Shown here: positions 11,216-36,454 of the stretch, piece by piece | Numbering within the stretch: position 1 is the first letter of the stretch | How the letters are laid out: every line of letters begins with the position of its first letter | Assembly (NCBI RefSeq): GCF_010091925.1 | Contig: NZ_WVID01000006.1 | Location: 1 to 64,000 of the forward strand | DNA length: 64,000 bases | Reading direction: 5' to 3' | DNA from: Nostoc sp. B(2019) | Lineage (GTDB): Bacteria; Cyanobacteriota; Cyanobacteriia; Cyanobacteriales; Nostocaceae | Position numbers and translations under genes: made by a program | The notes under the pieces: generated by a model | What the model was told of the DNA's origin: nothing | Database searches by the model: none | Seen by the model: only the letters and a program-made list of their open reading frames with translations

Positions 11216-11351
11216 TTAGATCTATACTGCCTTCAAAAAGCTGGTTTGGGCTTTCCTTCATAAAGGAACTTTAAGGCATCATCGCTCAATTTCTCCACTG
11301 GGCTATAAGATTGGTACTATTAGGTGACACGGAAACACCAATATGAAAATT

Positions 11352-11389
11352 GGGTAAACCTCCCCATCTAAAAACGGGGACATTTACCC
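11352..11389 (+). ncRNA. Structured leader candidate upstream of the 11460 gene
   Basis: There are nested stems: outer GGGTAAA (11352-11358) with TTTACCC (11383-11389), and inner CCCC (11362-11365) with GGGG (11376-11379) around an A-rich loop. It lies 70 bp before the next start codon, with no T-run. It could be a cis-acting RNA or a small dispersed palindrome. I match it to no known riboswitch. Confidence 0.4.
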
Positions 11390-11459
11390 TACCGGGAACA
11401 GGCATCTATTTAGGAATATAGAAATGTAGGATTGGCTTTGATCCCAAGCACCAACAAAC

Positions 11460-11849: not shown

Positions 11850-11882
11850 TACTGTTTGGGAGTAATACCACTACAAAATTAT

Positions 11883-11937
11883 TGGTTCATGGTGAGCCGG
11901 TGTGGTAAGTCCAGCATTAGCTCCCCACCATGAACCA
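11883..11937. repeat. 12-bp inverted repeat downstream of the 11460 gene
   Basis: TGGTTCATGGTG (11883-11894) pairs perfectly with CACCATGAACCA (11926-11937) over a 31-base loop. It is followed by more repeat-like sequence (11960-12020). It resembles a small MITE or palindromic repeat rather than a terminator, because no T-run follows. Confidence 0.6.
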
Positions 11938-12040
11938 CTGGCGTTAGCAAGTCCTGGCTGCGGCAAGCTACGCATAGCTTGTCCCTGTAGGGATATGAGC
12001 GTTAGCCGGAGAGTAATTGGTCATTGCAATATTTTATCTG

Positions 12041-12559
12041 TTAGCCATTACCATTATCAATTGAAGAGTCGAAAGCTGCTGGAATGTATTCTTGCAGCTT
12101 CAGATTGTATCCGGCTACTGATGAAGTAGCTAGAGCTTCCTGGGTAACTGTAGCCCCAGTCAGATTTTTTGAAATTCGCTGACAGTAGACAATAGCAACA
12201 TCGAATCGGCAAGGATAATCTGCTTTTTCAGGATACTGAGCTAAAAATATTTCAGCTGTACGCCAAAGTTTTGCTTGCTTTTGTGGAGTGATTGCGCTTC
12301 TTCCCCCAGCATCCCAATTGCCTGAACTGCGGGTTTTAACTTCCACAAATGCCAAGATAGAATCCTGAGTAAAGTGTCCTTCCTCTGCTCCCCCTACTCC
12401 CTTTGTCCCATCAAATTGGGCTATTATATCGATTTCTCCCCAGCGGCAAGAAAAGCGACGGTGCAGAATTATCCAACCTGTAGATTGCAACCATTGGGCT
12501 ACTAGGTCTTCTCCTAACTGACCAATATCAGGATAATGAGATGGAGGAAGGTTCGCCAT
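12041..12559 (-). CDS. yraN: YraN/UPF0102 family endonuclease-like protein
   Basis: 172 residues with the YraN core: [30 protein letters not shown] and [13 protein letters not shown], then Q-K[11 protein letters not shown]. The (E)-D-ExK arrangement is that of PD-(D/E)XK nucleases. The family is widespread and its cellular role is poorly known, possibly recombination or repair. Between IDIIAQFDG and ILAFVEVK there is an extra [16 protein letters not shown] segment not usual for the family, probably another repeat-derived insertion. The tail after residue about 135 is also longer than typical. Its start overlaps the divergent pentapeptide gene region. Confidence 0.88.
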
Positions 12560-13155
12560 TGAATAAAAATAGCATGAATTCTATGAATTCTAGGTTAAGC
12601 GATCGCATAGCGGTTTATACGCTCGGTTCATCCTGGTTATCGGGGATGAAGGGTAAAGCAGACTATCGGATTTGGGCAAGTATACTCAGTTTATTGCTTT
12701 GGGCAATAGTTGGCATCACGGCGTATGTGGGTTTTACTCCAACAGCTTTGGCGCTTGAATATAATAAGGAGATTTTGGTTGAGGCTGATTTCTCAGGACG
12801 TGATTTAACAGACTCTAGCTTTACTAAAGCTAATCTCCGCCAGAGTAACTTCAGTCACACTAATTTACGCGGTGTCAGTTTCTTTGCCGCAAATTTGGAG
12901 TCGGCAAATTTAGAAGGAGCTGATCTGACAAATGCTACTCTAGACTCGGCTCGCCTAATCAAAGCAAATTTGACAAATGCGGTGTTAGAGGGTGCATTTG
13001 CTGCTAATGCCAAGTTTGATGGTGCGATTATTGAGGGAGCAGATTTTACCGATGTACTGCTACGTCAGGATGAGCAAAAAAAATTGTGCCAGTTTGCCCA
13101 AGGTATTAATCCTATTACAGGACGAGACACGCGTGATACGTTGTTTTGCCCATAA
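12541..13155 (+). CDS. Lumenal/periplasmic pentapeptide-repeat protein
   Basis: The longest frame is 204 residues. Starts at 12574 or 12646 are more natural because the first overlaps yraN. The 12646 start gives a good signal peptide ([19 protein letters not shown], then FTPTALA). Pentapeptide repeats A(D/N)LxX run from about residue 82 to 170 ([24 protein letters not shown]), forming a right-handed beta-helix. A short C-terminal segment has two cysteines (KKLCQFAQG and DTLFCP). This resembles the thylakoid-lumen TL15/TL17-type pentapeptide proteins of plants and cyanobacteria. The role is unknown. Confidence 0.8.
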
Positions 13156-19380: not shown

Positions 19381-21144
19381 ATGACTCAAATATTTGCAGC
19401 CCCAACCCAAATAGACCACTATGTCTGTGTTGCTAAACTTGCAGATGTTCAGGCAACGGGTAGTTTATTGGTTAAGAGTGAAAAACATACTATTGCTTTG
19501 TTTTACTCAGATAATCAAGTCTATGCAATTGATAATCGTTGCCCTCACATGGGTTTTCCCCTCCACGGCAGCACATGCAAAGATGGCATTGTTACCTGTC
19601 CTTGGCATTATGCCCGCTTTGACCTCGCCAGTGGCGGAACTTTCGACTCTTGGGCAGATGATGTGCCTTCCTTTCCTGTAGAAATCCGGGATGGGGAAGT
19701 TTGGGTAAATCTAGCTCCCCCGATTGACCTCCATGCTCATCACTATCAGCGTCTTCAAGATGGCTTAGAACAGAGTATCTCGTTAGTTATTGCTAAATCA
19801 ACGATCGCCTTACTAGATATGGGAGCAGATCCCACTAAACCATTTCAGATGGGATTAGAATTTGGCACTCGTTACAACAAAGCAGGGTGGAGTTCTGGCT
19901 TAACTATCCATACCTGTATGATGAATTTGCTGCCTTATCTAGATGTAGAAGATAGACCCCGCGCCCTTTTCCAAGGACTTTCAGCAGTCGCCAATGATAG
20001 TGCAGGTGCGCCACCTCACTTTGTGGTTCACCCATTGCCTAATTCCAATGTTGATTTGAATACTCTCAAAAGCTGGTTTTGCCAGTTTGTTGAAGTGCGA
20101 GATAGTGAAGCCGCAGAGAGGTGTCTGGTATCTGCAATTCGGGCGGGGGCAAATTCAGAGCAAATTGCAGATATGCTATTCACAGCTGCCACAGACCACC
20201 GCTACATTGATGTCGGTCATACTCTTGACTTCATTAACAAGGCGCTAGAAGCACTCGATGCTGTCGGTTGGGAAGGAGCAGAGTCAGTTTTAGCAAGTCT
20301 AGTTTCTGGTTTGACAAGTGCTTCTCGCATGGAAGAATCTAATTCCTGGCGCTACCCTGTAGATTTGGTGGCAATTCTGCAATCTGCTTTTGAACAGTTA
20401 CCCGCAGCTTTGGAAACAGGACGATCGCAACAAGGAAAGTGGTCAGGCCGGGATGAATTAGTTCCTATTTTATTAGGAGAAGACCCACAAGCGATCGCTA
20501 ACTCTCTGCTTCATGCCCTACAAACAGGTTGTACTGAAGAACAATTAGCGAGTGTAGTAACTTACACAGCAGCACTGCGCGTTGCTCGCTTCCACACTAA
20601 CAACGACTTTGGAGACTGGAATTCAGCACATCATCCGTTTACCTTCGCCAATGCAGTACATCAAGGAATCCGACGAGTTCCTTCATTGGAACTACTGCGG
20701 GGTGTGTTTGATGCCGCCATGAGCGTTTATCTCAACCGCTTTTTAAATGTCCCACCAGCACGACTCCCAGAACCAAAAGACGCGGCTGAAAATCCCGAAG
20801 AATTGCTTCAGCAACTACCAGATTTGTTGGATCGTCAGCAGCAGGTAAATGAGACAGGTCGATTGGTGGCTCGTTATTTGTACAGTGGCGGTTCTTCGGA
20901 AAAGTTGATGGCAATGTTGGGTAAATTGATGTTGCGAGAAAACCGAGACTTTCATGTGATTCAGGAAATGGAAGCAGCTTTTCGGCAATATTCTTTACTG
21001 GGTGAAACTGCTGCTGGTATTCACATACTAGTTGCAGCATCTCGGTATTTAGCAGCACACGCGCCGACAATGCGATCGCAAGGGCAAACCTATCAAATCG
21101 CGCATCGCTTACATAAGGGCGATCGGCTGTTTGAGGAATCTTAA
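19381..21144 (+). CDS. Rieske [2Fe-2S] protein with large unassigned C-terminal domain
   Basis: 587 residues. An N-terminal Rieske domain (about 15-120) carries both ligand boxes, RCPHMGFP (C-x-H) and CPWHYARFD (C-x2-H). It belongs to the ferredoxin / nitrite-reductase small-subunit type rather than a dioxygenase alpha subunit, since no Fe(II) facial triad is obvious. The remaining about 460 residues are helical (LVSAIRAGANSEQIADMLF, LLHALQTGCTEEQLASVVTY) with His-containing stretches such as ATDHRYIDVGHTLDF. I do not recognise this fold. Such fusions occur in cyanobacteria and actinobacteria without assigned function. The next gene on this strand is the asparagine-synthetase-like 21456, 311 bp away; a link is only positional. 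Confidence 0.75.
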   Translation: MTQIFAAPTQIDHYVCVAKLADVQATGSLLVKSEKHTIALFYSDNQVYAIDNRCPHMGFPLHGSTCKDGIVTCPWHYARFDLASGGTFDSWADDVPSFPVEIRDGEVWVNLAPPIDLHAHHYQRLQDGLEQSISLVIAKSTIALLDMGADPTKPFQMGLEFGTRYNKAGWSSGLTIHTCMMNLLPYLDVEDRPRALFQGLSAVANDSAGAPPHFVVHPLPNSNVDLNTLKSWFCQFVEVRDSEAAERCLVSAIRAGANSEQIADMLFTAATDHRYIDVGHTLDFINKALEALDAVGWEGAESVLASLVSGLTSASRMEESNSWRYPVDLVAILQSAFEQLPAALETGRSQQGKWSGRDELVPILLGEDPQAIANSLLHALQTGCTEEQLASVVTYTAALRVARFHTNNDFGDWNSAHHPFTFANAVHQGIRRVPSLELLRGVFDAAMSVYLNRFLNVPPARLPEPKDAAENPEELLQQLPDLLDRQQQVNETGRLVARYLYSGGSSEKLMAMLGKLMLRENRDFHVIQEMEAAFRQYSLLGETAAGIHILVAASRYLAAHAPTMRSQGQTYQIAHRLHKGDRLFEES

Positions 21145-21455: not shown

Positions 21456-23180
21456 ATGCTATTTAATGTTTTCAAAACTCCTAATACCTTTTCATCTATC
21501 GAGATAACCCCTAGTTGGCGTGTAGTTTGGGGAACATTAAATACTCTCACAGCAGATGTAGTGTGGCGAGATAACCAGTTCGCAATTATTTCTTCACTCG
21601 CCACAGAGCAATTTGCATTCAGTCCCACAGAGCAATTTGTGGTGGTTGGGGATGTGTGGTTAAGTAATCGGGTGGAGTTGCTGCAAAGATTGGGAGTTGA
21701 GCCAAGTAGCTTTTTGGGAACTGATCGCCAGCTGATTGCTCAACTTTGGGAAAAATGGGGTTTTGGATGCTTAAAGCTGTTGGTAGGGATGTTTGGGTTA
21801 GTGGTTTGGGATCGTCAACAGCAAATATTGTGGTTAGGACGCGATCGCATTGGTAGCCGTACTTTGTACTACACTACCACGGGTTCAATTCGCTCGATTG
21901 CGCCGAAACTGCGATCGCTTACACCCTATCGCTCAGCTGATTTGGATTTGGTGGCGTTGCGAGATTATCTCTGTTGTGCCTTTGTACCGGGAGAAAGGAC
22001 GCTTTGGAAACAAGTGCGAGAAGTTCGTCCGGGAACAGTTGTAGAAATGCCTTCAGAGAAAATTTATACTTATTGGCAACTACAACAGCAAATTACAAAC
22101 GCAGATCAACCTTTAGTGTGGCATGGCGATCGCCTCCGCTCCCTACTTGATCAAGTTGTTCAGGAATATTTACCACAAAATCAAGCCGTTGGTGTTTTGT
22201 TATCAGGGGGTTTAGACTCTAGCAGTATCACCGCTTTAGCTGCAAAGTTTCATCATGCACCAGTCCACACCTACTCAATTTATTTTGGTTCGGAATCCCC
22301 CAATGAGTTAGAGTTTTCTAGCTTAGTTGCAGAACATTGCCAAACTCAACACCATATTCTCGAAATTACCTTTAAAGATATGTGGGAACGCCTACCAGAA
22401 ACAATGGCGTATCTTGATGATCCCATAGGTGATCCGCTAACAGTGCCAAACCTGCTGGTGGGAAGAATGGCGCGGGAAGATGTCCAGGTTATTCTCAATG
22501 GTGAAGGTGGTGATCCATGTTTTGGCGGCCCCAAGAATCAACCGATGCTGATTAATAACTTATATGGTTCTGTCATCAATCAAGATTCACTGCAAGCATA
22601 TCTGATTGCCTTTCAGAAATGTGCATTAGATTTACCGCAACTTTTAAAACCGGAAGTTTGGACATCTGTAAAAACAGAACCATCGATATTTTCTGCTGAT
22701 TTAAATTCTGATGCTAGTTACTTAAATCGGTTAATGGCACTGAATATTAAGTTTAAGGGAGCCGATCAAATCCTCACTAAAGTTAGTAACTTAACTCAAG
22801 CAGTGGGTTTACATGGGCGATCGCCTCTTTTCGATCAGCGAGTGGTTGACTTAAGTATGCAAATTCCTCCAGAATACAAACTTTCTGGAGTCGAAGAAAA
22901 AGCAGTACTCAAACAAGCGGTTTTAGATATCTTACCAGATGCCATTATTCATCGTCCTAAAAGTGGCATGATGGTTCCTGTGCAACTGGGATTTCGCAAA
23001 TATTGGCAGCGAGAAGCTAGAAAATTGTTGTTAAATAGGAAGAGTGCGATCGCGCCATATATTAATCAGTCATTGCTACGCGATTGGTTAGACTATCGAG
23101 GCGATATTTGGGGACGTTATGGCGTTAAACTTTGGTTATTGGTAAGTTTAGAGATTTGGTTACAAGTCAATCAGAAATAA
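21456..23180 (+). CDS. Asparagine-synthetase-like amidating enzyme, glutaminase-dead
   Basis: 574 residues. The N-terminal half keeps the class II amidotransferase-like fold (LLVGMFGLVVWDRQQQIL, GRDRIGSRTLYYT) but starts MLFNVFKT, not MC. It therefore lacks the Cys nucleophile that hydrolyses glutamine. The C-terminal asparagine-synthase domain has the ATP-pyrophosphatase loop GVLLSGGLDSSS, plus VILNGEGGDPCFGG and HGRSPLFDQRVVDLS. Such proteins adenylate a carboxylate and couple it to an amine, as in Asn synthetase, beta-lactam synthetase and lasso cyclase. No RiPP precursor or leader peptidase is seen nearby. It is convergent with the zinc-ribbon gene with a 5-bp gap and pairs with the paralogue at 25782. 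Confidence 0.82.
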   Translation: MLFNVFKTPNTFSSIEITPSWRVVWGTLNTLTADVVWRDNQFAIISSLATEQFAFSPTEQFVVVGDVWLSNRVELLQRLGVEPSSFLGTDRQLIAQLWEKWGFGCLKLLVGMFGLVVWDRQQQILWLGRDRIGSRTLYYTTTGSIRSIAPKLRSLTPYRSADLDLVALRDYLCCAFVPGERTLWKQVREVRPGTVVEMPSEKIYTYWQLQQQITNADQPLVWHGDRLRSLLDQVVQEYLPQNQAVGVLLSGGLDSSSITALAAKFHHAPVHTYSIYFGSESPNELEFSSLVAEHCQTQHHILEITFKDMWERLPETMAYLDDPIGDPLTVPNLLVGRMAREDVQVILNGEGGDPCFGGPKNQPMLINNLYGSVINQDSLQAYLIAFQKCALDLPQLLKPEVWTSVKTEPSIFSADLNSDASYLNRLMALNIKFKGADQILTKVSNLTQAVGLHGRSPLFDQRVVDLSMQIPPEYKLSGVEEKAVLKQAVLDILPDAIIHRPKSGMMVPVQLGFRKYWQREARKLLLNRKSAIAPYINQSLLRDWLDYRGDIWGRYGVKLWLLVSLEIWLQVNQK

Positions 23181-23185
23181 GGAAA

Positions 23186-24490
23186 TTAACCAAAACTTTG
23201 AACAACATACATATCATTACCTGTATCACCAACTAAAATCAAGCTGCTGTCATCACCTTGTAAATTGCTACTACCAGCAATCCCCCGTTGCAGAACTTGA
23301 ATCAGTTTTTGTGGAGTAAATGATTCTAATTCGACAAACTTTCCCGATTCTAAAAACTCTATTTCTTCAGTAGATAAACTCTGACGAATTTCCCCAAGCA
23401 CTTGTTTAGCTGCTTGTGCCGAATCTGGAGAGGATTGAATGAACATCCCGCGTTTAGTAGCAATAATCTGACGTGGTGTTAATCCGACATCAATAACAAC
23501 GACATCACCATCTTTAAACCATTTAGGGCTAGTACGGAGACGGTGAACTAAACCAATTCCTTGGGGGCTGCAATCATGCAAAGCATAGACTTTCAAATCT
23601 GGATTGCGGTACAGCATTTGCATTGTGGTGTCGAAAATATTTTGAGGATATCCATTAATGCTTAGAATTGCACAGTTATTTTCAAAGTGAAAATTGTTAG
23701 CAATTAATAATTGAGCAATGACAGCACTATCACAAACGATTAATCTATCAAAACTATAAGCGCTCACATCAGGATTAACTGGGGTTGGCTTATTTTCCTC
23801 ACGCGGAGAAGGCAGGATTTTGAGAATTGAACCGTTGATTTGCTGCCAGCGTTTTAGCCAACCTTGAAAATCATTTTGAGAAAATAAAAACTCTTGTTCT
23901 AATAATCCACTTCTACCTAGCTGTCGAGTTCCTAAGTATATCGATAGCATTCCCATAATAATGACGATGACAAATAGACTGAATGAGTTAAAAGTGAACA
24001 AACTATTATAAATTCCAATAGCAAGAATTATACATCCGATTATTTGTAAGCTTCTAGCATATTGGCGGCGATATTTCATGTTAATTTTAATTGATTTAGA
24101 CTTACTATAAAAATAATATATAAAACACACATTAACTATAAGTGATATGATCAATGGTGAATAAGATCCAAAGAATGGCGAGGTCAATTCACCTAGCAAT
24201 ATTGATATAAAAATATTAAAAAACATATAGACAAATATATAACCAAATATTGAGCCAGATTTGAACTTTATTCGATTATCTAATAAATAATAAAATTGCT
24301 TTTGAGTGAAAGATAGAGTGTTATTTGCGGAAATATCAGCGATCGCCTTCGCAAACATAGGATCAGTAATTTTAACATTACCCATACTAGTGGGTTCAAA
24401 TACAAACGGATGTTGGCATTTTGTACAGCGGCCTTGGTTAGCCGTCCGGTCTTTCAGATTATTATCAGTTCCGCAGTTAATACACTTCAT
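23186..24490 (-). CDS. Zinc-ribbon membrane protein with Toprim-like C-terminal region
   Basis: About 434 residues from the ATG at 24490 (MKCINCG); an upstream ATG at 24517 overlaps the previous gene. A C4 zinc ribbon (CINCG and CTKCQ) opens the protein. Three to five membrane spans (about 80-200) follow. A soluble C-terminal half includes DRLIVCDSAVIAQLLIA and LKVYALHDCSPQGIGLVHRL, which reminds me of the Toprim segment of TopoVI-A/Wadjet D proteins, but the acidic pattern is incomplete. It ends ILVGDTGNDMYVVQSFG. No named family. It begins 16 bp after the LysA-like stop, so it is the last gene of a three-gene operon. Confidence 0.6.
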   Translation of the reverse strand: MKCINCGTDNNLKDRTANQGRCTKCQHPFVFEPTSMGNVKITDPMFAKAIADISANNTLSFTQKQFYYLLDNRIKFKSGSIFGYIFVYMFFNIFISILLGELTSPFFGSYSPLIISLIVNVCFIYYFYSKSKSIKINMKYRRQYARSLQIIGCIILAIGIYNSLFTFNSFSLFVIVIIMGMLSIYLGTRQLGRSGLLEQEFLFSQNDFQGWLKRWQQINGSILKILPSPREENKPTPVNPDVSAYSFDRLIVCDSAVIAQLLIANNFHFENNCAILSINGYPQNIFDTTMQMLYRNPDLKVYALHDCSPQGIGLVHRLRTSPKWFKDGDVVVIDVGLTPRQIIATKRGMFIQSSPDSAQAAKQVLGEIRQSLSTEEIEFLESGKFVELESFTPQKLIQVLQRGIAGSSNLQGDDSSLILVGDTGNDMYVVQSFG

Positions 24491-24506
24491 AATGGTTATT
24501 GAATTT

Positions 24507-25757
24507 TCAGTTATCAAGCACTTGATTTGTTAGTAAAACACTGTAATCCTCACGCTGACGAATTAGGCGGTGTGTACCATTTTCAAGCAAGACTTCCGCG
24601 GGTTTGGGACGATGTAAAAAATGAGACGACATGGCATAACCATAAGCACCCACATCTAAAATGGCAATGATGTCACCAACTTCTAGCGCTGGTAGTTGGC
24701 AATTTTTCCCTAGATAATCTCGTGAATAGGTAGTATTACCACAGATATCCGTTGTGTAAATTTTATCTGTTTTCTTCCAACAGACGATTTCTCGATAGCC
24801 ACCATGCACCGAAGGAACTGAGAGATTTGCAACCGTGGTATCAACTCCGATAATTTGCTTTTCTGCTTGCCATTTTACAGAAACAACTTGAGCAAGCAAA
24901 GTAGCACATCCAGCGATCGCAGCTCGTCCCGGTTCAATCACTAAATCAATTTCCCTCCCCAAACGGGTAATTCTATCAGTCAACTCAGCCCCAAACAGTT
25001 CCCAATCAAAAGCTGCACCACCATGATGATACGGGTAGCCAAAACCACCACCAAAATCCAAAAATTCCCAGTCTGGTAACTTTTGTGCTGTAGCAAGCAC
25101 CGTATCAATCACCTGGGTAAAAGCTGTTGTAGCATTAGTGCCAGTACCGCGATAGAAATGCAAACCACCCAGTTTCAACCCAACTTCCCCAGCCAAAGCG
25201 ATCGCATCAGCAAATTCCTCTGGACGCACACCAATTCGACTATCTCCCGTTTCCGGCAAATTAACCCGTAAACCAAGGCGGAGATTTACATCTTTATCTT
25301 TGCGCCTTCGCGCCTTTGCGTGATCCAAAAAAACCTCACAACACAACTGCAACTGAGCAATACTATCAAAATTGAGAGTTTTTACCCCCCAATCGAGAAC
25401 TTGCAGCATCTCAGCCCAATTCAAATTACTCCCACTGTAAACAATCTCACTAGGATCAAAACCCGCTTTTAGCCCCAAATAAATATCTCCTGGTGTATTA
25501 GCGTGAAGTCCCCACCCAGATGAGCGAAAAATTTTTAACAGCGCAATATTGCCATTAGTAACACTAGCAAAACGAAATTGAGTGCGAGGATAACTTACAG
25601 CCTTCGTAATCCGCTCAATAGTTTGACGTAAGCGATCGCCTTCATAAACATAAAGCGGAGAACCGTAAGTACTCAATAACTCCTGAGCCAGTTCCCAACA
25701 GAATGGAGTAGAAAAATTATGAGTTGAATCATTTAAATTAGTTACTCTGTCCATCAA
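24507..25757 (-). CDS. LysA-fold (type III PLP decarboxylase) protein lacking the PLP lysine
   Basis: 416 residues with the diaminopimelate/ornithine-decarboxylase layout: GGLHFYRGTGTN, EFLDFGGGFGYPYH, LVIEPGRAAIAGC for phosphate binding, a catalytic-type Cys in TTDICGNTTYS, and ILDVGAYGYAMSSHF. Where the family has YALKAN, with Lys forming the PLP aldimine, this protein reads FASVTN, so Val replaces Lys by my alignment. It may be a non-decarboxylating or PLP-independent homologue. An insertion HAKARRRKDKD (about 25300-25325) is encoded by a dispersed GCGCCTTCGCGCCTTTGCG repeat. It sits 24 bp after the asparagine-synthetase-like gene in one operon. Confidence 0.8.
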   Translation of the reverse strand: MMDRVTNLNDSTHNFSTPFCWELAQELLSTYGSPLYVYEGDRLRQTIERITKAVSYPRTQFRFASVTNGNIALLKIFRSSGWGLHANTPGDIYLGLKAGFDPSEIVYSGSNLNWAEMLQVLDWGVKTLNFDSIAQLQLCCEVFLDHAKARRRKDKDVNLRLGLRVNLPETGDSRIGVRPEEFADAIALAGEVGLKLGGLHFYRGTGTNATTAFTQVIDTVLATAQKLPDWEFLDFGGGFGYPYHHGGAAFDWELFGAELTDRITRLGREIDLVIEPGRAAIAGCATLLAQVVSVKWQAEKQIIGVDTTVANLSVPSVHGGYREIVCWKKTDKIYTTDICGNTTYSRDYLGKNCQLPALEVGDIIAILDVGAYGYAMSSHFLHRPKPAEVLLENGTHRLIRQREDYSVLLTNQVLDN

Positions 25758-25781
25758 TTACGTTAGCGTAGCGTTAGCGAG

Positions 25782-27545
25782 TCATCGAGCGTCATTACGA
25801 ATTATTCGGTAATTTTTCCATAACCAACTAGGCAACCAAAACGGATGATCCCAGGATTTTTTGCCTACTTCTTCACCTAAGACATGCGATCGCCAAAGTT
25901 GCCACATAATAAGTAACCAGAGAATCTCACCAATACGACGACCTTGGATAGCTCCTCCCAGTTTACCTTCGACGATTTGTGCTGCTATGTGGGGAGAAAA
26001 ACGATTTTCCGCACTAAGTATACCCGGATTTAGCCAGATGCCAACTTGATGCCACAACTCATTTAAACACCACAAGGTTAAGGGAACTCCCATACCGCGT
26101 TTTTGCCGCCAGACAATTTCAGGTGGTAGCCAATTTTCCACCGCTCGCTTGAGGATATATTTCTCACAAGCTCCTTGTAAGCAGAGTTCTCCAGATAAGC
26201 TGAACGTCCACTCGGCTAAAGGTAGGTAACAAAAAGGCGATCGCACCAACAACCCATGAGCAAACCCTAAAGAAGTAGCACGGGGGTGGATATTCTGTGC
26301 TCCTTTAAGCATCAGAGTGGCACGGCGGAGACGATGCAGCAAAGATTTACACAAAGTTGGATCAAGAGCCTCCAAAAGCCAGTCTTGAGGATGCAAATTT
26401 TTTATCTGTGCGTATACCTCTGACTGATAAACTTCAGCTTCATATCCCCAAAGCCGATGGAAAGTGCGTAAATACTGCTGGATAAAATTTTCCTCTTGAA
26501 GTTCCCCCTGATAAACACCTGCGGCAATTAAAGGTTTATTCGTCCAACCACCAAACAACTGATCGCCACCTTCGCCATTAAAAATCACCTGAGTTTCTTG
26601 ACTAGCTCTCTGCGCCAAAAGATACAATGGAACACTTACCCCATCTCCAAATGGCATATCTAGCGATCGCACAGTCGGAATTAGGGCATTCTTGATAGAG
26701 CGTGGAGTTACCTCGACTTTGACTAGAGGAATTTTGAGAAACTGAGCAACTTGTTCAGCATAAGGATATTCTGGAAGTCCTACTGAACCAAAATCTAGAG
26801 TGTAAGCGCGAACTTTTACCCCAGCTTGCACCAGCAGCGCCGCCACCACTGAAGAATCAAGTCCGCCAGACAGAAACACCCCAACAGGCTCATCTTTTAA
26901 ATCGGCAATTTGTTGCTGAATCGAGTCTTGGAGGAGGGTTTGCAGCTGGGTTACTGCGGCTTCGTCCGTTAACTGTTCTGAAGCTTCTCGCCACGAGTGG
27001 ATTTTCTTAGATTGAGGTTTTGGAAGCACACTTGATTGCTCATTGTGCCAAACCAGTTCAGTCCCCGCTGGAACTGTAAAAACTTGAGCAACTGGGGTTA
27101 AGGGAGTTGGGACATAAGAAAAACAACTATAGCCGTACAAGCCAGCAATACTGACCTCTGGCTGTTTTAAAATCTGTAAGAGTAACTGTAGTTGAGATGC
27201 AAACCAAATAACCTGTCCTTGCTGAGTCCAATACAAAGGCACTTTTCCGAAAGGTTCTCTTCCCAAAATTAGGCAGTTATTTTCTTGTAAACTCACCCAA
27301 GCATCAGGCGCAGTAAATATTCCTGATGCCGAGATAGCAGCAATTTGATTTTGTAACGGTGAAGAATTTTTACCAAGTCCGACATAAGCAACATTCCAAA
27401 TAGGGTGAAAACAATTCTCCTCTTGAGATAACTGATTTAACGGCGTATTTGCGTGCATCTTTACACTAGTTAGCAACGCTTCCAACTCACTTTGAGCGCC
27501 GTAACCCCAATACCCAATAAAGTGATGTGGGATATTATTATCCAT
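25782..27545 (-). CDS. Second asparagine-synthetase-like amidating enzyme, glutaminase-dead
   Basis: 587 residues. It starts MDNNIPHHFIGYWGYG, with no Cys at position 2, so no glutaminase. The residual N-terminal domain is recognisable at LILGREPFGKVPLYWTQQG. The synthetase domain has GVFLSGGLDSSVV, YTLDFGS, VIFNGEGGDQLFGGW and VRSPFCYLPLAEW. It is a paralogue of the 21456 product rather than of AsnB proper. It leads an operon with the LysA-fold and zinc-ribbon genes, with gaps of 24 and 16 bp. Substrate unknown. A polypyrimidine tract of about 69 bp lies immediately upstream. Confidence 0.82.
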   Translation of the reverse strand: MDNNIPHHFIGYWGYGAQSELEALLTSVKMHANTPLNQLSQEENCFHPIWNVAYVGLGKNSSPLQNQIAAISASGIFTAPDAWVSLQENNCLILGREPFGKVPLYWTQQGQVIWFASQLQLLLQILKQPEVSIAGLYGYSCFSYVPTPLTPVAQVFTVPAGTELVWHNEQSSVLPKPQSKKIHSWREASEQLTDEAAVTQLQTLLQDSIQQQIADLKDEPVGVFLSGGLDSSVVAALLVQAGVKVRAYTLDFGSVGLPEYPYAEQVAQFLKIPLVKVEVTPRSIKNALIPTVRSLDMPFGDGVSVPLYLLAQRASQETQVIFNGEGGDQLFGGWTNKPLIAAGVYQGELQEENFIQQYLRTFHRLWGYEAEVYQSEVYAQIKNLHPQDWLLEALDPTLCKSLLHRLRRATLMLKGAQNIHPRATSLGFAHGLLVRSPFCYLPLAEWTFSLSGELCLQGACEKYILKRAVENWLPPEIVWRQKRGMGVPLTLWCLNELWHQVGIWLNPGILSAENRFSPHIAAQIVEGKLGGAIQGRRIGEILWLLIMWQLWRSHVLGEEVGKKSWDHPFWLPSWLWKNYRIIRNDAR

Positions 27546-27621: not shown

Positions 27622-28242
27622 CTACTTAACTTCAAACGTTTCATCACTAATTTGACGACCTTCTAAAAACATCTGCACCCGCCAATTACCAACGGTTGCA
27701 GCAGAGTTAATAGGATAGCGACAGTAAGTATCCCAGACAGACGTATTAATCTCGCGGGTTTGATAGCGGTTTTGCTTGACAATTTGACCGTTGGGGTCAA
27801 TCCAATTACAGGAGAGAGCTAGCTTTTTACCCAAAGGTGCATCCTTCAAGGTGACACGGTAAAAAACTTCTGGATTGTTTTGGCGAGAGATAGTATTTGT
27901 GCTGCTGCTATTATCTGCGAGGGTGAGGCGGTCTTGTTGAGCAGAAACACGGGAGAGTACAGAGTTTTGCTGCTGGATGAAGAAGATTATACAGGCAACT
28001 GCCACCAATAAAGATCCAACCACTCCAGAAAGAATCCATCGATTCTTTCGTTGCTGCACCTCTAATGCTTGCCGACGACGTAATTGGATGAGCGCTTCAT
28101 CGAGTAACTCTGGCGGTAAATTCAACTCCTGTAAAATTTCCCTAACCTGCTGTAGATCAAGTTCCGCATCCTGACGTATTTGCAACCCTTCTACTTCAGT
28201 AACTATTTGTGTTAATTGCTCTTGAGTTAGTCGCTGTGTCAT
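27622..28242 (-). CDS. Single-span membrane protein of unknown function
   Basis: 206 residues. An N-terminal cytosolic helical part (LDLQQVREILQELNLPPELL, then DEALIQLRRRQALEVQQRK) precedes one transmembrane segment (WILSGVVGSLLVAVACIIFF). A Ser/Asn-rich linker and a C-terminal beta-rich domain follow (FYRVTLKDAPLGKKLALSC, VGNWRVQMFLEGRQISDETF). The C-terminal pattern resembles small exported domains that end in a 'G.W.V..y..g..v....F.V' strand. I have no family name. It is upstream of, and on the same strand as, the asparagine-synthetase-like operon, 76 bp away, and may belong to it. Confidence 0.6.
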   Translation of the reverse strand: MTQRLTQEQLTQIVTEVEGLQIRQDAELDLQQVREILQELNLPPELLDEALIQLRRRQALEVQQRKNRWILSGVVGSLLVAVACIIFFIQQQNSVLSRVSAQQDRLTLADNSSSTNTISRQNNPEVFYRVTLKDAPLGKKLALSCNWIDPNGQIVKQNRYQTREINTSVWDTYCRYPINSAATVGNWRVQMFLEGRQISDETFEVK

Positions 28243-29731: not shown

Positions 29732-29787
29732 CTAGATAGTCGAATTCAATAAGCAAAAAGGTATATTACTTTCTCAAACTCCAGTTT

Positions 29788-30017
29788 GCTTTCTCATTTT
29801 GCCTAAATGCTTTCTCATTTCAGTAGATTCAGCAAGTAAAAAGGCATATTGCTTTCTCATTTTGCCTAAATGCTTTCTCATTTCAGTAGATTCAGCAAGC
29901 AAAAAGACATATTGCTTGCTCATTTTGCCTAAATGCTTTCTCATTTCAGTAGATTCAGCAAGTAAAAAGGCATATTGCTTGCTCATTTTGCCCAAATGCT
30001 TTCTCATTTCAGTAGAT
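29788..30017. repeat. 63-bp tandem repeat, about 3.6 copies
   Basis: Copies start at 29788, 29851, 29914 and 29977, exactly 63 bp apart and over 90% alike. Each unit contains GCTTTCTCATTTTGCCTAAAT and CAGTAGATTCAGCAAG. Because 63 is divisible by 3, all frames stay open: the minus strand could encode a repeated 21-residue unit (TEMRKHLGKM, then SKQYAFLLAES). Confidence 0.9.
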
Positions 30018-30097
30018 CGCGCACTCATTCCTAAACTATAAAGTGAACCAAATGCGATCGCACCTAAATTATATGGATGTAAGACCTTTTTTGAGCA

Positions 30098-30700
30098 ATG
30101 CCCAATTACAAAATTCAAAAACGATCGCTAGTTCTGGTTTCATTGGCTTTGATGTCTGCTCTGCTGCTGACATTTATATCTACAGCATTGAGTATTTATT
30201 TGTACAGCAGCAATAGTAATAATAAAGCAGAAGCGGCAATTGTTCTAGGTGCAGCAGTGTGGGGAGAAGAACCATCTCCTGTTTTCAAAGAACGAATTAA
30301 CCACGCCATTAATTTATATAAAAACGGTGATGTTAGTACCATCATTTTTACAGGTGGAGTTGGCGATCGCAATGAACCAGCCGAAGCAATAGTTGGTAAA
30401 AATTATGCGATCGCCCAACGGGTTAAAGCAAATGATATTCTGATCGAAACTCAATCTCGAACAACTTCCCAGAACCTTAAAAACGCTCTAAAAGTGGCGT
30501 CTGATAACCAATTAACTAAGTTTCTTATTGTTAGTGACCCATTGCATACCAAGCGAGCCGTATTGATGGCGCGAGATTTAGGAATGGATGCATATCCATC
30601 CGCCACACCTACTACCCGCTACCGCAGTTTTCAAAGTCAAATGGAGTTTCTGATGCGAGAAACTTATTTCTATCTTGTCTACCTTGTGTTAAAAATCTAA
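30098..30700 (+). CDS. YdcF/SanA/ElyC family (DUF218) membrane protein
   Basis: 200 residues. An N-terminal membrane anchor (LVLVSLALMSALLLTF) precedes the DUF218 domain. That domain shows AEAAIVLGAAVWGEEPSPVF, IIFTGGVGDRNEPAEA, IETQSRTTSQNLKNAL and FLIVSDPLHTKRAVLMA. E. coli relatives SanA and ElyC affect envelope integrity and peptidoglycan or undecaprenyl metabolism; the chemistry is not firmly known. It lies directly downstream of the 63-bp tandem repeat, whose end is about 80 bp from the start codon. Confidence 0.85.
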   Translation: MPNYKIQKRSLVLVSLALMSALLLTFISTALSIYLYSSNSNNKAEAAIVLGAAVWGEEPSPVFKERINHAINLYKNGDVSTIIFTGGVGDRNEPAEAIVGKNYAIAQRVKANDILIETQSRTTSQNLKNALKVASDNQLTKFLIVSDPLHTKRAVLMARDLGMDAYPSATPTTRYRSFQSQMEFLMRETYFYLVYLVLKI

Positions 30701-31611: not shown

Positions 31612-32658
31612 ATGCCACTACTTCATATCCTTCATTTAGTTGGGTCTGCACACAACGATTTTTATTGTGATTTATCACGCCTTTACGCCCAAGACTGTTT
31701 AGCAGCAACAGCAGATCGATCGCGTTATGATTTTCAGATTGCATACATCACACCTGATCGCCAATGGCGATTTCCTGACTCCCTCAGTCGAGAAGATATT
31801 GCTCTGGCAAAACCGATTCCTTTGTTTGATGCCGTACAGTTTCTAACAGGGCAAAACATTGACATCATGTTACCACAAATGTTTTGTATTCCTGGAATGA
31901 CTCAGTACCGTGCCCTATTCGATCTGCTCAAGATCCCTTATATAGGCAATACTCCCGATATCATGGCAATAACGGCCCACAAAGCCAGAACTAAAGCAAT
32001 TGTTGAAGCAGCAGGGGTGAAAGTGCCGCGTGGCGAACTGCTTTGCCAAGGAGACGTTCCGACAATTACACCTCCAGCAATTATCAAACCCGTAAGTTCG
32101 GACAATTCTTTAGGTGTTACCTTAGTCAAAGAGGCTACTGACTATGATGCTGCTCTGAAGAAAGCATTTGAATACGCAGATGAAATCATTGTAGAAGAAT
32201 TCATCGAACTCGGTCGAGAAGTCAGATGCGGCATCATTGTTAAAGACGGGGAGTTAATCGGTTTACCCCTAGAAGAGTATTTGGTAGACCCCCACGATAA
32301 ACCCATCCGCAACTATGTTGATAAACTCCAACAAACCGACGATGGCGACTTGCGTTTCGCCGCTAAAGATAATATTAAGTCTTGGATTGTAGACCCTAAC
32401 GACCCAATCACCCAAAAGGTTCAGCAAGTGGCTAAAAAGTGTCATCAGGCTTTAGGTTGTCGCCACTACAGTTTATTTGACTTCCGCATCGACCCAAACG
32501 GACAACCCTGGTTCTTAGAAGCCGGATTGTATTGTTCTTTTGCCCCTAAAAGCGTGATTTCCTCTATGGCGAAAGCAGCCGGAATCCCTCTAAATAATTT
32601 GTTAATAACCGCTATCAATGAAACGTTAGGCAGCAGTCAATTGCCGTTGCAAAATTGA
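31612..32658 (+). CDS. mysD: Mycosporine-glycine ligase (D-Ala-D-Ala ligase homologue)
   Basis: 348 residues of ATP-grasp type resembling D-Ala-D-Ala ligases: IIKPVSSDNSLGVTLVKEAT for the ATP-binding strand/loop, IIVEEFIELGREVRCGIIV, and CRHYSLFDFRIDPNGQPWFLEA for Mg binding. In MAA pathways this ligase attaches a second amino acid, usually serine (shinorine) or threonine (porphyra-334), to mycosporine-glycine. It is convergent with mysC, 235 bp apart, as I recall for N. punctiforme (NpF5597 beside NpR5598-5600). Amino-acid preference cannot be read from the sequence. The family's vancomycin-type chemistry is excluded by context. Confidence 0.9.
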   Translation: MPLLHILHLVGSAHNDFYCDLSRLYAQDCLAATADRSRYDFQIAYITPDRQWRFPDSLSREDIALAKPIPLFDAVQFLTGQNIDIMLPQMFCIPGMTQYRALFDLLKIPYIGNTPDIMAITAHKARTKAIVEAAGVKVPRGELLCQGDVPTITPPAIIKPVSSDNSLGVTLVKEATDYDAALKKAFEYADEIIVEEFIELGREVRCGIIVKDGELIGLPLEEYLVDPHDKPIRNYVDKLQQTDDGDLRFAAKDNIKSWIVDPNDPITQKVQQVAKKCHQALGCRHYSLFDFRIDPNGQPWFLEAGLYCSFAPKSVISSMAKAAGIPLNNLLITAINETLGSSQLPLQN

Positions 32659-32893
32659 TAGTGAATTTGTTAAAAAAATCAAGAGAATAAATAATTACTG
32701 CAACTTTGGAGTGCCAGAGGCGATTCTCCTACGGAGACGCTACGCGATCGCAGAAAAAATAAAGAGCATGAACAAGCTTTCGCTATTCATGCTCAACAAT
32801 TACGAATTACGCCAATTTCCCAAAACAGATGGAAACCTCAAAACCCAGATTAAATATAACTTTCATAATTATGAATTATGAATTATAAATTAC

Positions 32894-34291
32894 TTAATCA
32901 CCGCCTAATTCCACTAGTTTGCCGATATTAAAGTCAATCTTTACCCAGCCTTTGAGCTTTTGCAGATTTTGTAGCAAAAGTAAAGTAATCTGCCAATGGT
33001 GCAAAGTTAAAAATGGTATAGGATCATCCATGCGATAGATTGCATCTGTACCTCTAACTAAGTTCTTAAACCATGTTTGCAATTGTTTCCCAGAACGAAT
33101 ACCAGTCAGTCGCCAAATTTCGTGATATAGCCAGTAAGTAGGCTTGCTATCAGCCAAGGGTTCTAGAGGTGCAGCTAGGGGAGTTTTGCCAAGATAGGCT
33201 TCGGCAACACCAGGGTGATTGTAGAACATTGTGATTGCCGAATGGGTGCGGGGATTACATTCAATGGCGTAGACTGTACCGTCTTCAGCTTGGATAAAGT
33301 CAAAAGATACTTGTCCAGTCAGTCTCAGACTCTTGACGAAGTGTTGCACCCATTGCCGGATTTGAGGATTTTCCACATTTTCATAGTTGATTTGAAATGC
33401 AGAAGAGTTTGAGCAGCAATGTAATCTTAACTCTCCATCTCGCACGGTACTATGGGTGCATAATTCTTTCCCAGGAATAAACTCTTGCATAATCCAAGGT
33501 TTTTCTGGACTAATAGGTAAACTCCTTACAAACGCTGCTGTTTCTTCTGGAGTGTCACAAGGAAGTTTGGTTAAATTTAAGCGGCGAACTGAGTCGTAAG
33601 AAATACTTTTAATTATATATTTGCGGGTTTCTTGACTAAAGTCAAAGTTGATAATTTGTTCTGGATCTGTAATTTTAAAAGATTTAGGGACAGATAAACC
33701 AAGCGATCGCGCCTGATCGGTAAAGGCAAATTTATCATCCAGCATTGCAGTTATATCTGCATCGAAGTGGAAAACCTCACAGTATTCTGATAGTACAGGC
33801 TTTGCCAACGAATCGTAGTAACTAGCTACAGGGCTGCATACGGGTACATAAACATCAATTTTCTCTTTTTTGACGATTTCCAATAAAGCTTTTGTATAGC
33901 CTTCTGGGTCGTCTTGCGGTGCTGGTACTGTATAAAAACGACTCACTGCATTTGAGAATCTATGCCCAGATAACCAGTATTTGTGACCTTCAATTAGAAT
34001 AACTCTGTGTCCTGCGGCGTGAAAGGAGCGAGCAAGTTGTAATGCTTTGGTCATCTTAGCGCCACTCACTAAGATATTCTGAGGGTGAGCAGCTACGGCA
34101 GTTTTTTTCATAAACGGGTTACGCACAATTCGCCACAGCAGAGATACCAAAACTACAAAAGCATTGAGTGGCAAGGCTAAGAGTAATAGTGCTAAAGTAC
34201 CGAGAGTTTTGAATAAAGCCACTATCTTTGCCTTTACAACCATTGATGGGGTCGTGGGTTGAGGCAAAGATAAGGAAATAGATTGTGCCAT
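32894..34291 (-). CDS. mysC: ATP-grasp ligase forming mycosporine-glycine
   Basis: 465 residues. A hydrophobic N-terminal stretch (about 25-55, ALLLLALPLNAFVVLVSLLW) suggests membrane association. The ATP-grasp body contains NILVSGAKMTKALQLARSF, KYIIKSISYDSVRRLNL, PWIMQEFIPGKELCTH, GQVSFDFIQAEDGTVYAIEC and NPRTHSAITMF, the last two carrying the metal ligands. MysC joins glycine to 4-deoxygadusol to give mycosporine-glycine. It is third in the mysA-mysB-mysC run. A 33-bp palindrome sits in the 92-bp gap after mysB, a possible attenuation or processing point. Confidence 0.93.
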   Translation of the reverse strand: MAQSISLSLPQPTTPSMVVKAKIVALFKTLGTLALLLLALPLNAFVVLVSLLWRIVRNPFMKKTAVAAHPQNILVSGAKMTKALQLARSFHAAGHRVILIEGHKYWLSGHRFSNAVSRFYTVPAPQDDPEGYTKALLEIVKKEKIDVYVPVCSPVASYYDSLAKPVLSEYCEVFHFDADITAMLDDKFAFTDQARSLGLSVPKSFKITDPEQIINFDFSQETRKYIIKSISYDSVRRLNLTKLPCDTPEETAAFVRSLPISPEKPWIMQEFIPGKELCTHSTVRDGELRLHCCSNSSAFQINYENVENPQIRQWVQHFVKSLRLTGQVSFDFIQAEDGTVYAIECNPRTHSAITMFYNHPGVAEAYLGKTPLAAPLEPLADSKPTYWLYHEIWRLTGIRSGKQLQTWFKNLVRGTDAIYRMDDPIPFLTLHHWQITLLLLQNLQKLKGWVKIDFNIGKLVELGGD

Positions 34292-34324
34292 AAGTTTTTA
34301 TTTCATGCAAAATACGAGTTTTTC

Positions 34325-34357
34325 GTAGGGACACAACAATGTTGGTTGTGTCCCTAC
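34325..34357. repeat. Palindrome between mysB and mysC
   Basis: GTAGGGACACAAC (34325-34337), 7-base loop, GTTGTGTCCCTAC (34345-34357), with perfect 13-bp arms. It lies between the mysB stop and mysC start, so any transcript spanning the operon folds here. No T-run is present, so RNA stability control or partial termination are both possible. Confidence 0.85.
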
Positions 34358-34383
34358 TACGTGTTGCTAATTCCCAATGCTTA

Positions 34384-35217
34384 TTACACCACGCGTCTAA
34401 TCAGGGTTACACCATCTCGTATGGGTAACAAAACTTGCTCCACACGGGTATCTGTGGCAACAACGCGGTTAAATTGAGCGATCGCCTCGCCGTTAACAGT
34501 GCGTTGTGCAGGCGGTAGGTAAACTTCTCCTTGTAACAAAGTATTATCTACGCAGATTAACCCATCAGGAGCTAGTAACTGAGTATCCAAAATTATCTGG
34601 AAGTACTCTACATACTCCTTTTTATCGGCATCAATGAAGATCAGATCAAATGATTCTTTTTGGGCCGCCAGCTTATGGAGTGTCTGTAGGGCAGGTGCTA
34701 CCTCTACAACAATCTTATTGCCGTGGGGAGACTCACTAAAGCAAGCTTGAGCAAATTCGGCGACATAAGAGTCTACTTCGCAAGCAATGAGTTTTCCATC
34801 GCTTGGTAATGCTTCCGCCATCGCCAAGGCTGAGTATCCTGTGAACATTCCCACTTCTAGGATGCGCTTGGCTTTGGTTATATGCACAAACATCTTCAGT
34901 GTTTGTCCCTCTAGATGTCCTGAGAGCATTTCCTGCTCTAATTGACGTACTGTTTCACCATCGCTAAAGCGTTTGCTCCAGTCTTCTTTACTAGTCTTTT
35001 GCGCTAGTGCTGTCAATGCAGCCGATTCGGGGGTGGTGCAATCATCTAAGTAGGGATCTAAACCCGCCGCTAATTGCAATCCCTGGCGCAGAGAAGTCAA
35101 TATTTCTAAGGGAACATTGCCTTCCTCTGCCATTCGGAGGGTATTTTGTAGCTGCGCTACAAGGATGCTATGTGGTGTTATGGGTCTTGCGGTGTCTGGT
35201 TTTAAAATGCTAGTCAT
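34384..35217 (-). CDS. mysB: O-methyltransferase making 4-deoxygadusol
   Basis: 277 residues from the ATG at 35217, 4 bp after the mysA stop; the longer frame from 35331 lies inside mysA. It is a caffeoyl-CoA/COMT-type SAM methyltransferase: AKRILEVGMFTGYSALAMA (motif I), DGKLIACEVDSYVAEFA, FDLIFIDADKKEYVEYF (metal-binding Asp) and GLICVDNTLLQGEVYLP. MysB O-methylates demethyl-4-deoxygadusol, the product of MysA. Spacing implies translational coupling with mysA. Confidence 0.93.
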   Translation of the reverse strand: MTSILKPDTARPITPHSILVAQLQNTLRMAEEGNVPLEILTSLRQGLQLAAGLDPYLDDCTTPESAALTALAQKTSKEDWSKRFSDGETVRQLEQEMLSGHLEGQTLKMFVHITKAKRILEVGMFTGYSALAMAEALPSDGKLIACEVDSYVAEFAQACFSESPHGNKIVVEVAPALQTLHKLAAQKESFDLIFIDADKKEYVEYFQIILDTQLLAPDGLICVDNTLLQGEVYLPPAQRTVNGEAIAQFNRVVATDTRVEQVLLPIRDGVTLIRRVV

Positions 35218-35221
35218 GTCT

Positions 35222-36454
35222 TCAGACTCCCAAGAGTTTTGATTCTTCTTGGGTTTCAATGTAAGCATCAATCCCATCACCACCACGGGGATATGTAGCA
35301 CACAGACGTTTGTGTTCAGCCAAGGCTGCATCTAGTTCTTCACGAGTGAGATCGTTGACAAAGAAGCACTCACCAATGGGTCGTGGCATGGCTGCGCGTA
35401 GTTTGCCATCTCGTGTCAAGCTTATAGACTGGGTGGCATACCATAATAAATCGCCATCTAGTAGAGGATGATCGATTGATAAACCTATACGACTCATCAA
35501 GCTCAGGATGCGATCGCGTTCTCCAGTTGTGATATAACCACGTTTAGCGGCAATGGTTGCAGAGAAAGCCATGTCTATATTGACGGCATGACCATGATAT
35601 AAAGGAACCATCGGAGCTAATTCTAAGGTAGGACTCCAAGTATGGCCGTAGGCAATGACGCGATCAAGGTCTAATTCATGCAAGTTAGGAGTCTCTAACT
35701 CCAACATGGTTTTGATTGCTTCGTAGTTGACTTTATGAGCGATCGCTTTAAGTTCGCTAGTGCTATTCACATGTCCAAAGTGAGTGTACAGCAGTTCTTC
35801 ACCGTATTCATCTAACAGATCAAAGACTTCAGAATTAGAGACTACAGCAATCTTGACTAACTCCGCCATCCCGTTGCGAACTTGAGCCGTTGGCAAGGTT
35901 TTCAAAAAGGAGAAATCGAGGATAACTTTCAAAGGAGCATGATACGCTCCTAAGCGATTTTTCAACTTGCGATGATTAACTGCTACCTTAATCGCCACAC
36001 CTGCATCAATTAAGCCAATCAGTGTAGTCGGAACACGAATGTAGTTGCTCTTACGACGATAAGCCGCACAAGCAAACCCCGCTACATCAGTGATTAAACC
36101 ACCACCCACAACTAAAACTGGTTCCTTACGAATTAAGCCAAAGTCAGAGAAAGCATCAACAATTTTCTCAAAGGTTGCAAGGGTTTTAGCTGGCTCAGTA
36201 ATGGTTATGGGCAATACAGTCAGATCAATGCCATAGTGTCTAAAATATGACTTGATCTGCGTTCCATATAGTCTATTTACATTGGCATCAATCACAGTGA
36301 GACAGCGCCCGAATTTCTCATAGCTGTCGGCAATTTCCCTGTTATCGATGTCAAATGCACCGTTCACATAAACAAGACTAAATTCAATTTTTTCGTAACC
36401 TTCTACATGAAATGAAGATTCCGTTGCTTCAAACGATGCTTGGACATTATTCAT
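35222..36454 (-). CDS. mysA: Demethyl-4-deoxygadusol synthase (sugar phosphate cyclase)
   Basis: 410 residues of the dehydroquinate-synthase / 2-epi-5-epi-valiolone-synthase superfamily. The NAD site is [19 protein letters not shown], followed by [20 protein letters not shown] with the basic residues [15 protein letters not shown]. Zinc-type ligands are E in [12 protein letters not shown] and His in [11 protein letters not shown] and [13 protein letters not shown]. The EVS-like DDGS subclass converts sedoheptulose-7-phosphate to the MAA core. It is the first gene of mysABC. The 640-bp upstream region should hold the light/UV-responsive promoter, which I could not pinpoint. Confidence 0.93.

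Follow-up and report, generated by a model that had tools for sequence, protein, structure and literature searches.

A cyanobacterial gene module pairing an asparagine-synthetase-like ligase with membrane proteins that end in Phe-Gly: a candidate protein-tail modification system

The window analysed here is a stretch of 64,000 nucleotides from Nostoc sp. B(2019) (NZ_WVID01000006.1, positions 1 to 64,000, assembly GCF_010091925.1; contig C76 of a 7.4-Mb genome). It holds a compact locus encoding two asparagine-synthetase-like proteins (AsnB1 and AsnB2), a LysA-like protein, a zinc-ribbon membrane protein (toprim), and a further membrane protein (27622) (Table 1). The four open reading frames (ORFs) described in a first-pass annotation of the sequence were recovered, three on the minus strand and a fourth that converges with them. 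The intergenic gaps are 24 bp between AsnB2 and LysA-like, 16 bp between LysA-like and toprim, and 5 bp between toprim and AsnB1. The 27622 gene ends 76 bp before AsnB2, in the same operon. An alternative TTG start of the toprim ORF is present at 24517; the start common to the family is the MKC at 24490. What is added to the first-pass annotation is the Toprim-like domain, the nearly invariant Phe-Gly C-terminus, and the usual presence of the 27622 gene in the operon.

Table 1. Features of the locus, in window coordinates unless a fetched stretch is named
Feature	Position	Strand	Remark
AsnB1, glutaminase-dead asparagine-synthetase-like ligase	21456..23180	+	convergent with the operon; tracks the Phe-Gly tail
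AsnB1 SGGLDSS ATP-pyrophosphatase loop	22203..22223	+	residues 250-256
Toprim, zinc-ribbon four-helix membrane protein (helices predicted)	23186..24490	-	degenerate Topo VI-A-like Toprim domain
Toprim disordered acidic C-terminal tail (predicted)	23189..23281	-	residues 404-434; pLDDT <50
Toprim C-terminal Phe-Gly codons	23189..23194	-	homolog tail comparison
LysA-like protein without cofactor lysine	24507..25757	-	
LysA-like Val66 codon	25560..25562	-	position of the LysA cofactor lysine
AsnB2, glutaminase-dead asparagine-synthetase-like ligase	25782..27545	-	
AsnB2 SGGLDSS ATP-pyrophosphatase loop	26850..26870	-	residues 226-232
27622 membrane protein, first gene of the operon	27622..28242	-	adjoins AsnB2 upstream
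106-residue tandem paralog of toprim	L108:14200-14520 = L186:7815-8135		

The zinc ribbon of toprim consists of two CxxC pairs, the cysteines of which are invariant. Four long helices are predicted in the structural model and are interpreted as transmembrane. The top Foldseek matches of the remaining domain were to Topo VI-A (1d3y and 9o0g). The three best had E-values of 1.8e-4 to 9.8e-4 and a probability of 1.00, but TM-scores of 0.26–0.37 with a model pLDDT of 61.8, and the match to PF21180 was weak (22.4 bits, below the cut-off of 24.1). At what we take to be the catalytic positions of Toprim domains (Glu and DxD), a Cys replaces the Glu, and Ser, Thr, or Asn mostly stands in for the second Asp (D-C-S/T/N, by eye). 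Judged by these residues, the domain is degenerate. It differs from Topo VI A/Spo11 in these changed positions and in lying within a zinc-ribbon membrane protein.

The acidic C-terminal tail of toprim is predicted to be disordered from about residue 404. Tails were compared among distinct homologs that scored above 140 bits and lay clear of contig ends; nine lower-scoring fragments were left out. Phe-Gly (FG) formed the exact C-terminus in 89 of the 91 distinct homologs (93 of 95 before identical copies were removed). The commonest C-terminal dipeptide of the other proteins was found in 7 of 58 AsnB1, 12 of 88 AsnB2, 10 of 81 LysA-like, and 51 of 80 27622 sequences (VK in the last). While the body of the tail is variable, its last two residues are nearly constant. 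Six more full-length toprim ORFs end with FG (L186, L187 with two, L188 with two, and L190), some from genomes already counted. Tandem toprim copies exist, and in Desmonostoc geniculatum a paralog of 106 residues, among the nine fragments left out above, retains the zinc ribbon and the FG-ended tail, without the membrane and Toprim parts; this counts as one case, because L108 and L186 come from a single contig. No second tail-bearing protein was found by a tail search of the Nostoc genome, the two weak matches (E-values of 0.5 and 3.5) resembling calcium-binding-repeat proteins.

Relatives of asparagine synthetase adenylate a carboxylate and hand it to an amine; among them, lasso peptide cyclase and β-lactam synthetase do so without using glutamine. 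The two synthetase-like proteins of the locus match the Pfam family Asn_synthase with 244.6 and 190.4 bits, and GATase_7 with 58.2 bits in AsnB1 and 25.7 bits, over a short stretch only, in AsnB2. Motifs were counted in homolog ORFs above 300 bits (61 AsnB1 and 93 AsnB2, a few loci being fetched twice). The claim that both proteins lack the N-terminal cysteine and keep the ATP loop extends to their homologs: Met-Cys is absent from the first 60 residues in all 61 AsnB1 and all 93 AsnB2 ORFs (the AsnB2 N-terminus at L172 reads MSGICGW), and SGG[LIV]DSS is kept in 60 and 87 of them, respectively. The GEGGD and RPKSG/RQKRG regions are also conserved, so that both proteins display the loop and the synthetase-domain motifs of adenylating amide synthetases of this type. 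In an alignment of AsnB1 with Escherichia coli AsnB, the NGEIYN segment, presumably the glutamine site, is replaced, and GEGGD and the RPK lysine region, to which we assign their customary roles, are kept. From this pattern, AsnB1 is probably no longer able to use glutamine.

Scores for AsnB1 and AsnB2 remain below the cut-offs of the models for the glutamine-hydrolysing asparagine synthase (TIGR01536, 241.3 and 179.8 bits; cut-off 267.1) and the N-acetylglutaminylglutamine amidotransferase (TIGR03104, 229.4 and 120.1 bits; cut-off 570.1). The lasso peptide cyclase model NF033535 gave 175.3 and 53.1 bits for the two synthetases (cut-off 525), and β-lactam synthetase is a distant match of the AsnB1 profile (54.1 bits).

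The LysA-like protein has an altered LysA fold, as had been proposed. Its FASVTNGN segment aligns with the cofactor-lysine motif YAVKANFN of the solved LysA 2p3e, and the lysine is replaced by Val in 84 of 84 homologs, including the most distant members, at L172 and L173. The His of the HIGSQ motif is a Tyr in all 84, and GGG, EPGR, and GAY are kept in all 84; we assume for these motifs the roles that they have in LysA. The family thus probably keeps a cofactor-like pocket and not the LysA chemistry, the normal lysine-based use of the cofactor being closed to it because the lysine is lost. The score with the diaminopimelate decarboxylase model TIGR01048 was 242 bits (cut-off 297.9). As a separate LysA match (479.5 bits) and further Asn_synthase proteins (C76:202224, C33:43512, and partly C65:47704) are encoded elsewhere in the genome, the locus does not provide the LysA of the cell and need not be an asparagine pathway. 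AsnB1, AsnB2, and the LysA-like protein have no membrane helix (by eye).

The 27622 protein has a helical N-terminal region, a single membrane helix (by eye), and a C-terminal Ig-like β-sandwich with two invariant cysteines, which resembles DUF3859 with a score equal to the cut-off. The Ig-like domain leaves the role of the protein no narrower.

Conservation of the neighbourhood was examined in public genomes, where AsnB2 relatives were found in 187 stretches, the best 80 of which were kept. Gene order was scored in the 72 named loci that have 3.5 kb or more of downstream sequence, allowing gaps of up to 1.6 kb. In 66 of these, LysA-like comes after AsnB2 and toprim after LysA-like, all on the same strand: 64 recognized by script, and L134 and L137 by eye, which the script missed as over-long ORF calls overlapped. 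The outcome that would have spoken against the first-pass annotation, genes that seldom adjoin one another, is thus not what was observed. In the others, AsnB2 stands alone (L117, L118, and L135), with a 27622 homolog only (L123 and L126), or directly before toprim, the LysA-like gene being missing between them (L092, Iningainema tapete, 10010-13110). The suggestion that the 27622 protein belongs to the locus is borne out: of 76 loci in which the fetched stretch extends far enough, 67 have a homolog no more than 700 bp upstream of AsnB2. Where the stretch covers 5 kb or more upstream and 8 kb or more downstream, it included AsnB1 in 35 of 52 loci. All five genes are carried by plasmid Cy782202 of Gloeothece verrucosa PCC 7822, where they are annotated as hypothetical, asparagine synthetase B family, decarboxylase, hypothetical, and asparagine synthase-related protein. 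The system is also found in the bloom-formers Dolichospermum and Aphanizomenon.

The genes also occur together across genomes. Of 60 genomes, that of the window included, 17 carry both toprim and AsnB2 and none carries only one of them, a co-occurrence far beyond chance. A sample of 386 genomes, evenly drawn from the phylum, was then searched with E-value limits of 1e-3 for toprim, 1e-85 for AsnB1, 1e-80 for AsnB2, and 1e-90 for LysA-like, at which divergent copies may be missed. Toprim was found in 40 genomes, AsnB1 in 40, AsnB2 in 33, and LysA-like in 34. Toprim and AsnB1 are together in 37 genomes, out of a union of 43, and every genome with AsnB2 or LysA-like also carries toprim. The locus is a dedicated module, as the first-pass annotation had supposed, and it is recurrent. 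Some genomes (G024, G169, G144, and G270 among them) carry AsnB1 far away from the operon, the set being divided among three places in G024. That AsnB1 is retained although unlinked argues for a shared function rather than mere linkage. In one of the 17 genomes (G018; L059, G018:C1:3538000-3557900), all five genes are present but broken by stops and frameshifts.

Five genomes of the phylum but outside the class encode toprim homologs that are 27–31% identical to the window protein; these values come from alignment A6, which contains FG-ending sequences only (61 of 67 listed, plus the window) and was not used for the statement on tails. In three fetched stretches the locus consists of toprim and AsnB1 only (L174, L175, and L176, the genome of the last being 73% complete). 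A LysA-like gene is added at L173, and LysA-like and AsnB2 at L172. The five tails all end with FG (GGDDDFG twice, GGGGDFG, DSDSDFG, and GGGDSFG). As L174, L175, and L176 hold toprim and AsnB1 alone, AsnB1 appears as the constant partner. Sequence comparison establishes the genes, the residue losses, the conservation of Phe-Gly at the C-terminus, and the association of the tail with AsnB1, and we consider it likely that the Phe-Gly tail is the partner of AsnB1. A link with photosynthesis was rejected, since the five relatives that have the system show no reaction-centre match.

A search for DDFG-stop sites in six genomes of the phylum returned nine matches, against 11 for the reversed control. 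Four of the nine read into TGG and three end ORFs of 13, 38, and 57 residues. The remaining two are the only ones ending longer ORFs; both are toprim genes, and both lie beside AsnB1. The argument from these sites rests on their location, not on their frequency.

A relative of AsnB1 (42.1% identity over 89% of the query) is encoded on a megaplasmid of Streptomyces sp. NBC_01237. Its best NCBIfam model is TIGR03104 (254.6 bits; cut-off 570.1), which by score makes it a relative of that family and not a member. It is preceded by three tandem toprim-like proteins (L189:9423-12588; 21 to 57 bits), which have GF[LM][ST]WP near their C-termini; the first two, not the third, start with a zinc ribbon. 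Directly upstream of AsnB1 lies a gene for a protein of 179 residues with one apparent membrane segment, no detected relative, and a Gly/Asp-rich tail ending with AWSDDDFG. The third-position GC of this ORF (0.93) indicates that it is coding, and its DDFG-stop site is the only one on the replicon of 1,601,525 bases (the reversed control also gave one). The DDDFG end of an unrelated protein beside AsnB1 suggests that the tail moves between proteins and stays with AsnB1. A low-stringency search of plasmids for AsnB1 returned 180 records; among the 60 matches listed, most were AsnO-like and AsnB-like relatives.

We propose, with about even confidence, that the locus is a protein-tail modification module in which AsnB1 adenylates the C-terminal glycine of the tail and joins it to an amine. 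The first-pass annotation had left open a small molecule or a protein modification; the evidence leans toward the latter, as AsnB1 tracks proteins with a Phe-Gly C-terminus. As carrier or substrate, toprim would hold its flexible acidic tail near the membrane. AsnB1 would bind this tail, adenylate the carboxylate of the C-terminal glycine with ATP, and pass the activated glycine to an amine, generating an amide. Use of the C-terminal carboxylate is the simplest assumption, because an enzyme of the asparagine synthetase type tracks a conserved C-terminal glycine. The LysA-like protein would probably bind or present the amine, or pyridoxamine phosphate, and not decarboxylate. AsnB2 may form a second amide bond; it and the LysA-like protein, found together in most loci, would be further members. 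The 27622 protein may link the system to the periplasmic side. That the tail is the substrate and the terminal carboxylate the reacting group is inferred, as are the amine and what AsnB2, the LysA-like protein, and the 27622 protein do. A more far-reaching version, in which AsnB1 replaces a ubiquitin-type E1 by activating Phe-Gly and conjugating it to an amine of a lipid or of another protein, is quite improbable; it would be convergent with Atg8, the processed end of which is also Phe-Gly.

The same association could arise if the Phe-Gly tail were a docking motif only, bringing AsnB1 to the membrane, possibly along with AsnB2 and the LysA-like protein, the amide being formed in a small molecule. 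Docking motifs typically take this form, a short conserved end on a flexible tail, and the absence of membrane helices from the three soluble proteins fits it. The very last residue is, however, more conserved than docking usually requires, the three minimal loci contain no other homolog of the set, and the family of AsnB1 activates carboxylates, some of which are peptide C-termini (PMC13060819). Docking alone is considered rather unlikely.

The proposed modification of the tail must be weighed against several observations. Enzyme activity and tail modification are predictions from sequence, and acidic residues of the tail could react in place of the terminal carboxylate. For the AsnB1 of the window, the general AsnB model outscores TIGR03104 (241.3 vs 229.4 bits). 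Two toprim tails do not end with FG: at L104, no more than 100 bp from a contig end, the last residues diverge from those of the relative L109, and the sequence at L131 is a fragment of a decayed second copy. The co-occurrence statistic (hypergeometric p < 1e-37) ignores shared ancestry. AsnB1 is found without detected toprim in G132 and G160, where it is intact, and in G067, where it is broken (L191, L192, and L193); no FG-ended ORF of at least 60 residues lies near it in G160 and G067, and the single one in G132, of 90 residues and 6.8 kb away, is unconvincing as a partner. None was found either near four unlinked AsnB1 genes (L194-L197). Toprim occurs without detected AsnB1 in G167, and the toprim matches of G041 and G165 are weak or partial only. 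DDFG-stop sites are not commoner than their reversed controls (9 vs 11 in the phylum, 1 vs 1 in Streptomyces). The Streptomyces case is a single record. Its three toprim-like proteins, which were not counted among the 91, do not terminate in FG, and the tail of its 179-residue protein could face the side opposite the enzyme, given the one membrane segment (by eye).

In a survey of 87 loci, the 30 widest neighbour families included no sixth conserved neighbour beyond lineage synteny, no small precursor or carrier peptide, protease, or exporter, no ATP-grasp or exosortase polysaccharide gene, and no other conserved biosynthetic, carrier, or transport gene beside the five. Lineage synteny accounts for an SDR gene adjoining AsnB1 in seven Microcoleus/Lyngbya-type loci and for a glyoxalase-like gene in 19 loci, mostly of Nostoc. 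This scarcity of neighbours bears on a small-molecule pathway, in which the synthetases would couple a carboxylic acid with an amine that the LysA-like protein handles, with toprim as regulator or scaffold. The three kinds of soluble enzyme-like proteins do look metabolic, and an aldehyde dehydrogenase gene adjoins the Streptomyces locus. AsnB-like and LysA-like proteins are encoded together in XrtA/PEP-CTERM polysaccharide clusters, and the corresponding models match here, below cut-off (TIGR03108, 240.5 and 157 vs 816.9 bits; TIGR03099, 101.8 vs 478.45 bits), but the exosortase polysaccharide genes are missing from the surveyed families. A LysA-like and AsnB-like pair presumably also serves tabtoxin synthesis; this parallel was not used as evidence. 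With no further pathway gene conserved, minimal loci that consist of AsnB1 and a tail protein, and a LysA-like protein unfit for normal lysine-based cofactor chemistry, a small-molecule pathway is unlikely.

A peptide natural product, of which the tail would be the core, made into a lactam or amide by AsnB1 and released by a protease as in lasso peptides or pearlins, is very doubtful. Asparagine-synthetase-like enzymes do make lasso peptides and C-terminal amides and nitriles of ribosomal peptides (PMC13060819); pearlins are built at the C-terminus of a carrier (PMC9303977); and tandem toprim copies exist. The carrier is, however, a large membrane protein, the precursor gene, protease, and exporter are missing from the surveyed families, and it is the body of the tail that varies and hardly its last two residues.

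Modification of the toprim tail by AsnB1 has parallels in known systems. LysW possesses a zinc ribbon and an acidic C-terminal tail, and toprim has both; toprim ends with Phe-Gly and not with the Glu that accepts the amino group in LysW, is membrane-bound, and contains a Toprim-like domain, and its ligase is AsnB-like and not of the ATP-grasp type as in LysW/LysX. TIGR03104, among the best NCBIfam models of AsnB1, is what we take to be the AsnO-type family, amidotransferases of a dipeptide. The logic of an amide-linked carrier is shared with pearlins (PMC9303977) and amino-group carrier proteins (PMC8305020), in which amides are carried at the protein C-terminus. TsrC and ScdTA amidate peptide C-termini, PesC converts one into a nitrile, and AsnO uses a dipeptide (PMC13060819). 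AsnB1 has in common with these four the asparagine-synthetase fold, the ATP loop, and a peptide carboxyl end as the substrate, here a proposed one. It differs from them by the absence of the glutaminase Cys, by scores below all cut-offs, and in what it is proposed to act on, the terminus of an entire membrane protein; the surveyed neighbour families contain no small precursor, exporter, or protease. No description of the gene combination was found among the papers listed from the open-licence literature of PubMed Central, at the level of titles and the starts of abstracts.

Other parts of the window were considered as members. The Rieske protein that the first-pass annotation tentatively associated with the locus (19381-21144) combines a Rieske-type domain with some 470 residues that match no Pfam family. 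The association was dropped after a comparison of 17 stretches (each at most 20 kb long) from 16 further genomes that carry the locus, where the Rieske gene lies nearby only in the three from the same genus. Together with it were rejected the neighbouring mys-like genes, which also adjoin the locus only within the genus. The region 31612-36454, possibly for mycosporine-like amino acids, encodes a 3-dehydroquinate-synthase-like protein, a product that matches no NCBIfam model, a PRK06849 protein that is presumably an ATP-grasp enzyme, and a D-Ala-D-Ala-ligase-like protein. The ORF at 29774-30118 consists of near-identical repeats (STEMRKHLGKM...) and looks like a repeat array, not a gene. A function in anti-phage defence was rejected, PADLOC giving no match save a QueC-like ATP-loop similarity and a marginal MkoB match.

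If the toprim tail is indeed modified, this protein-tail modification would be shared by many cyanobacteria, by relatives in the phylum that show no photosystem match, and by at least one Streptomyces. An AsnB-type ligase would act on the end of a membrane protein, for which no description was found in the titles and abstract starts mentioned above. Genes now annotated as asparagine synthase, decarboxylase, and hypothetical protein would be explained, and the known substrates of the enzyme family (free amino acids, antibiotics, and short peptides) would be extended by a protein.

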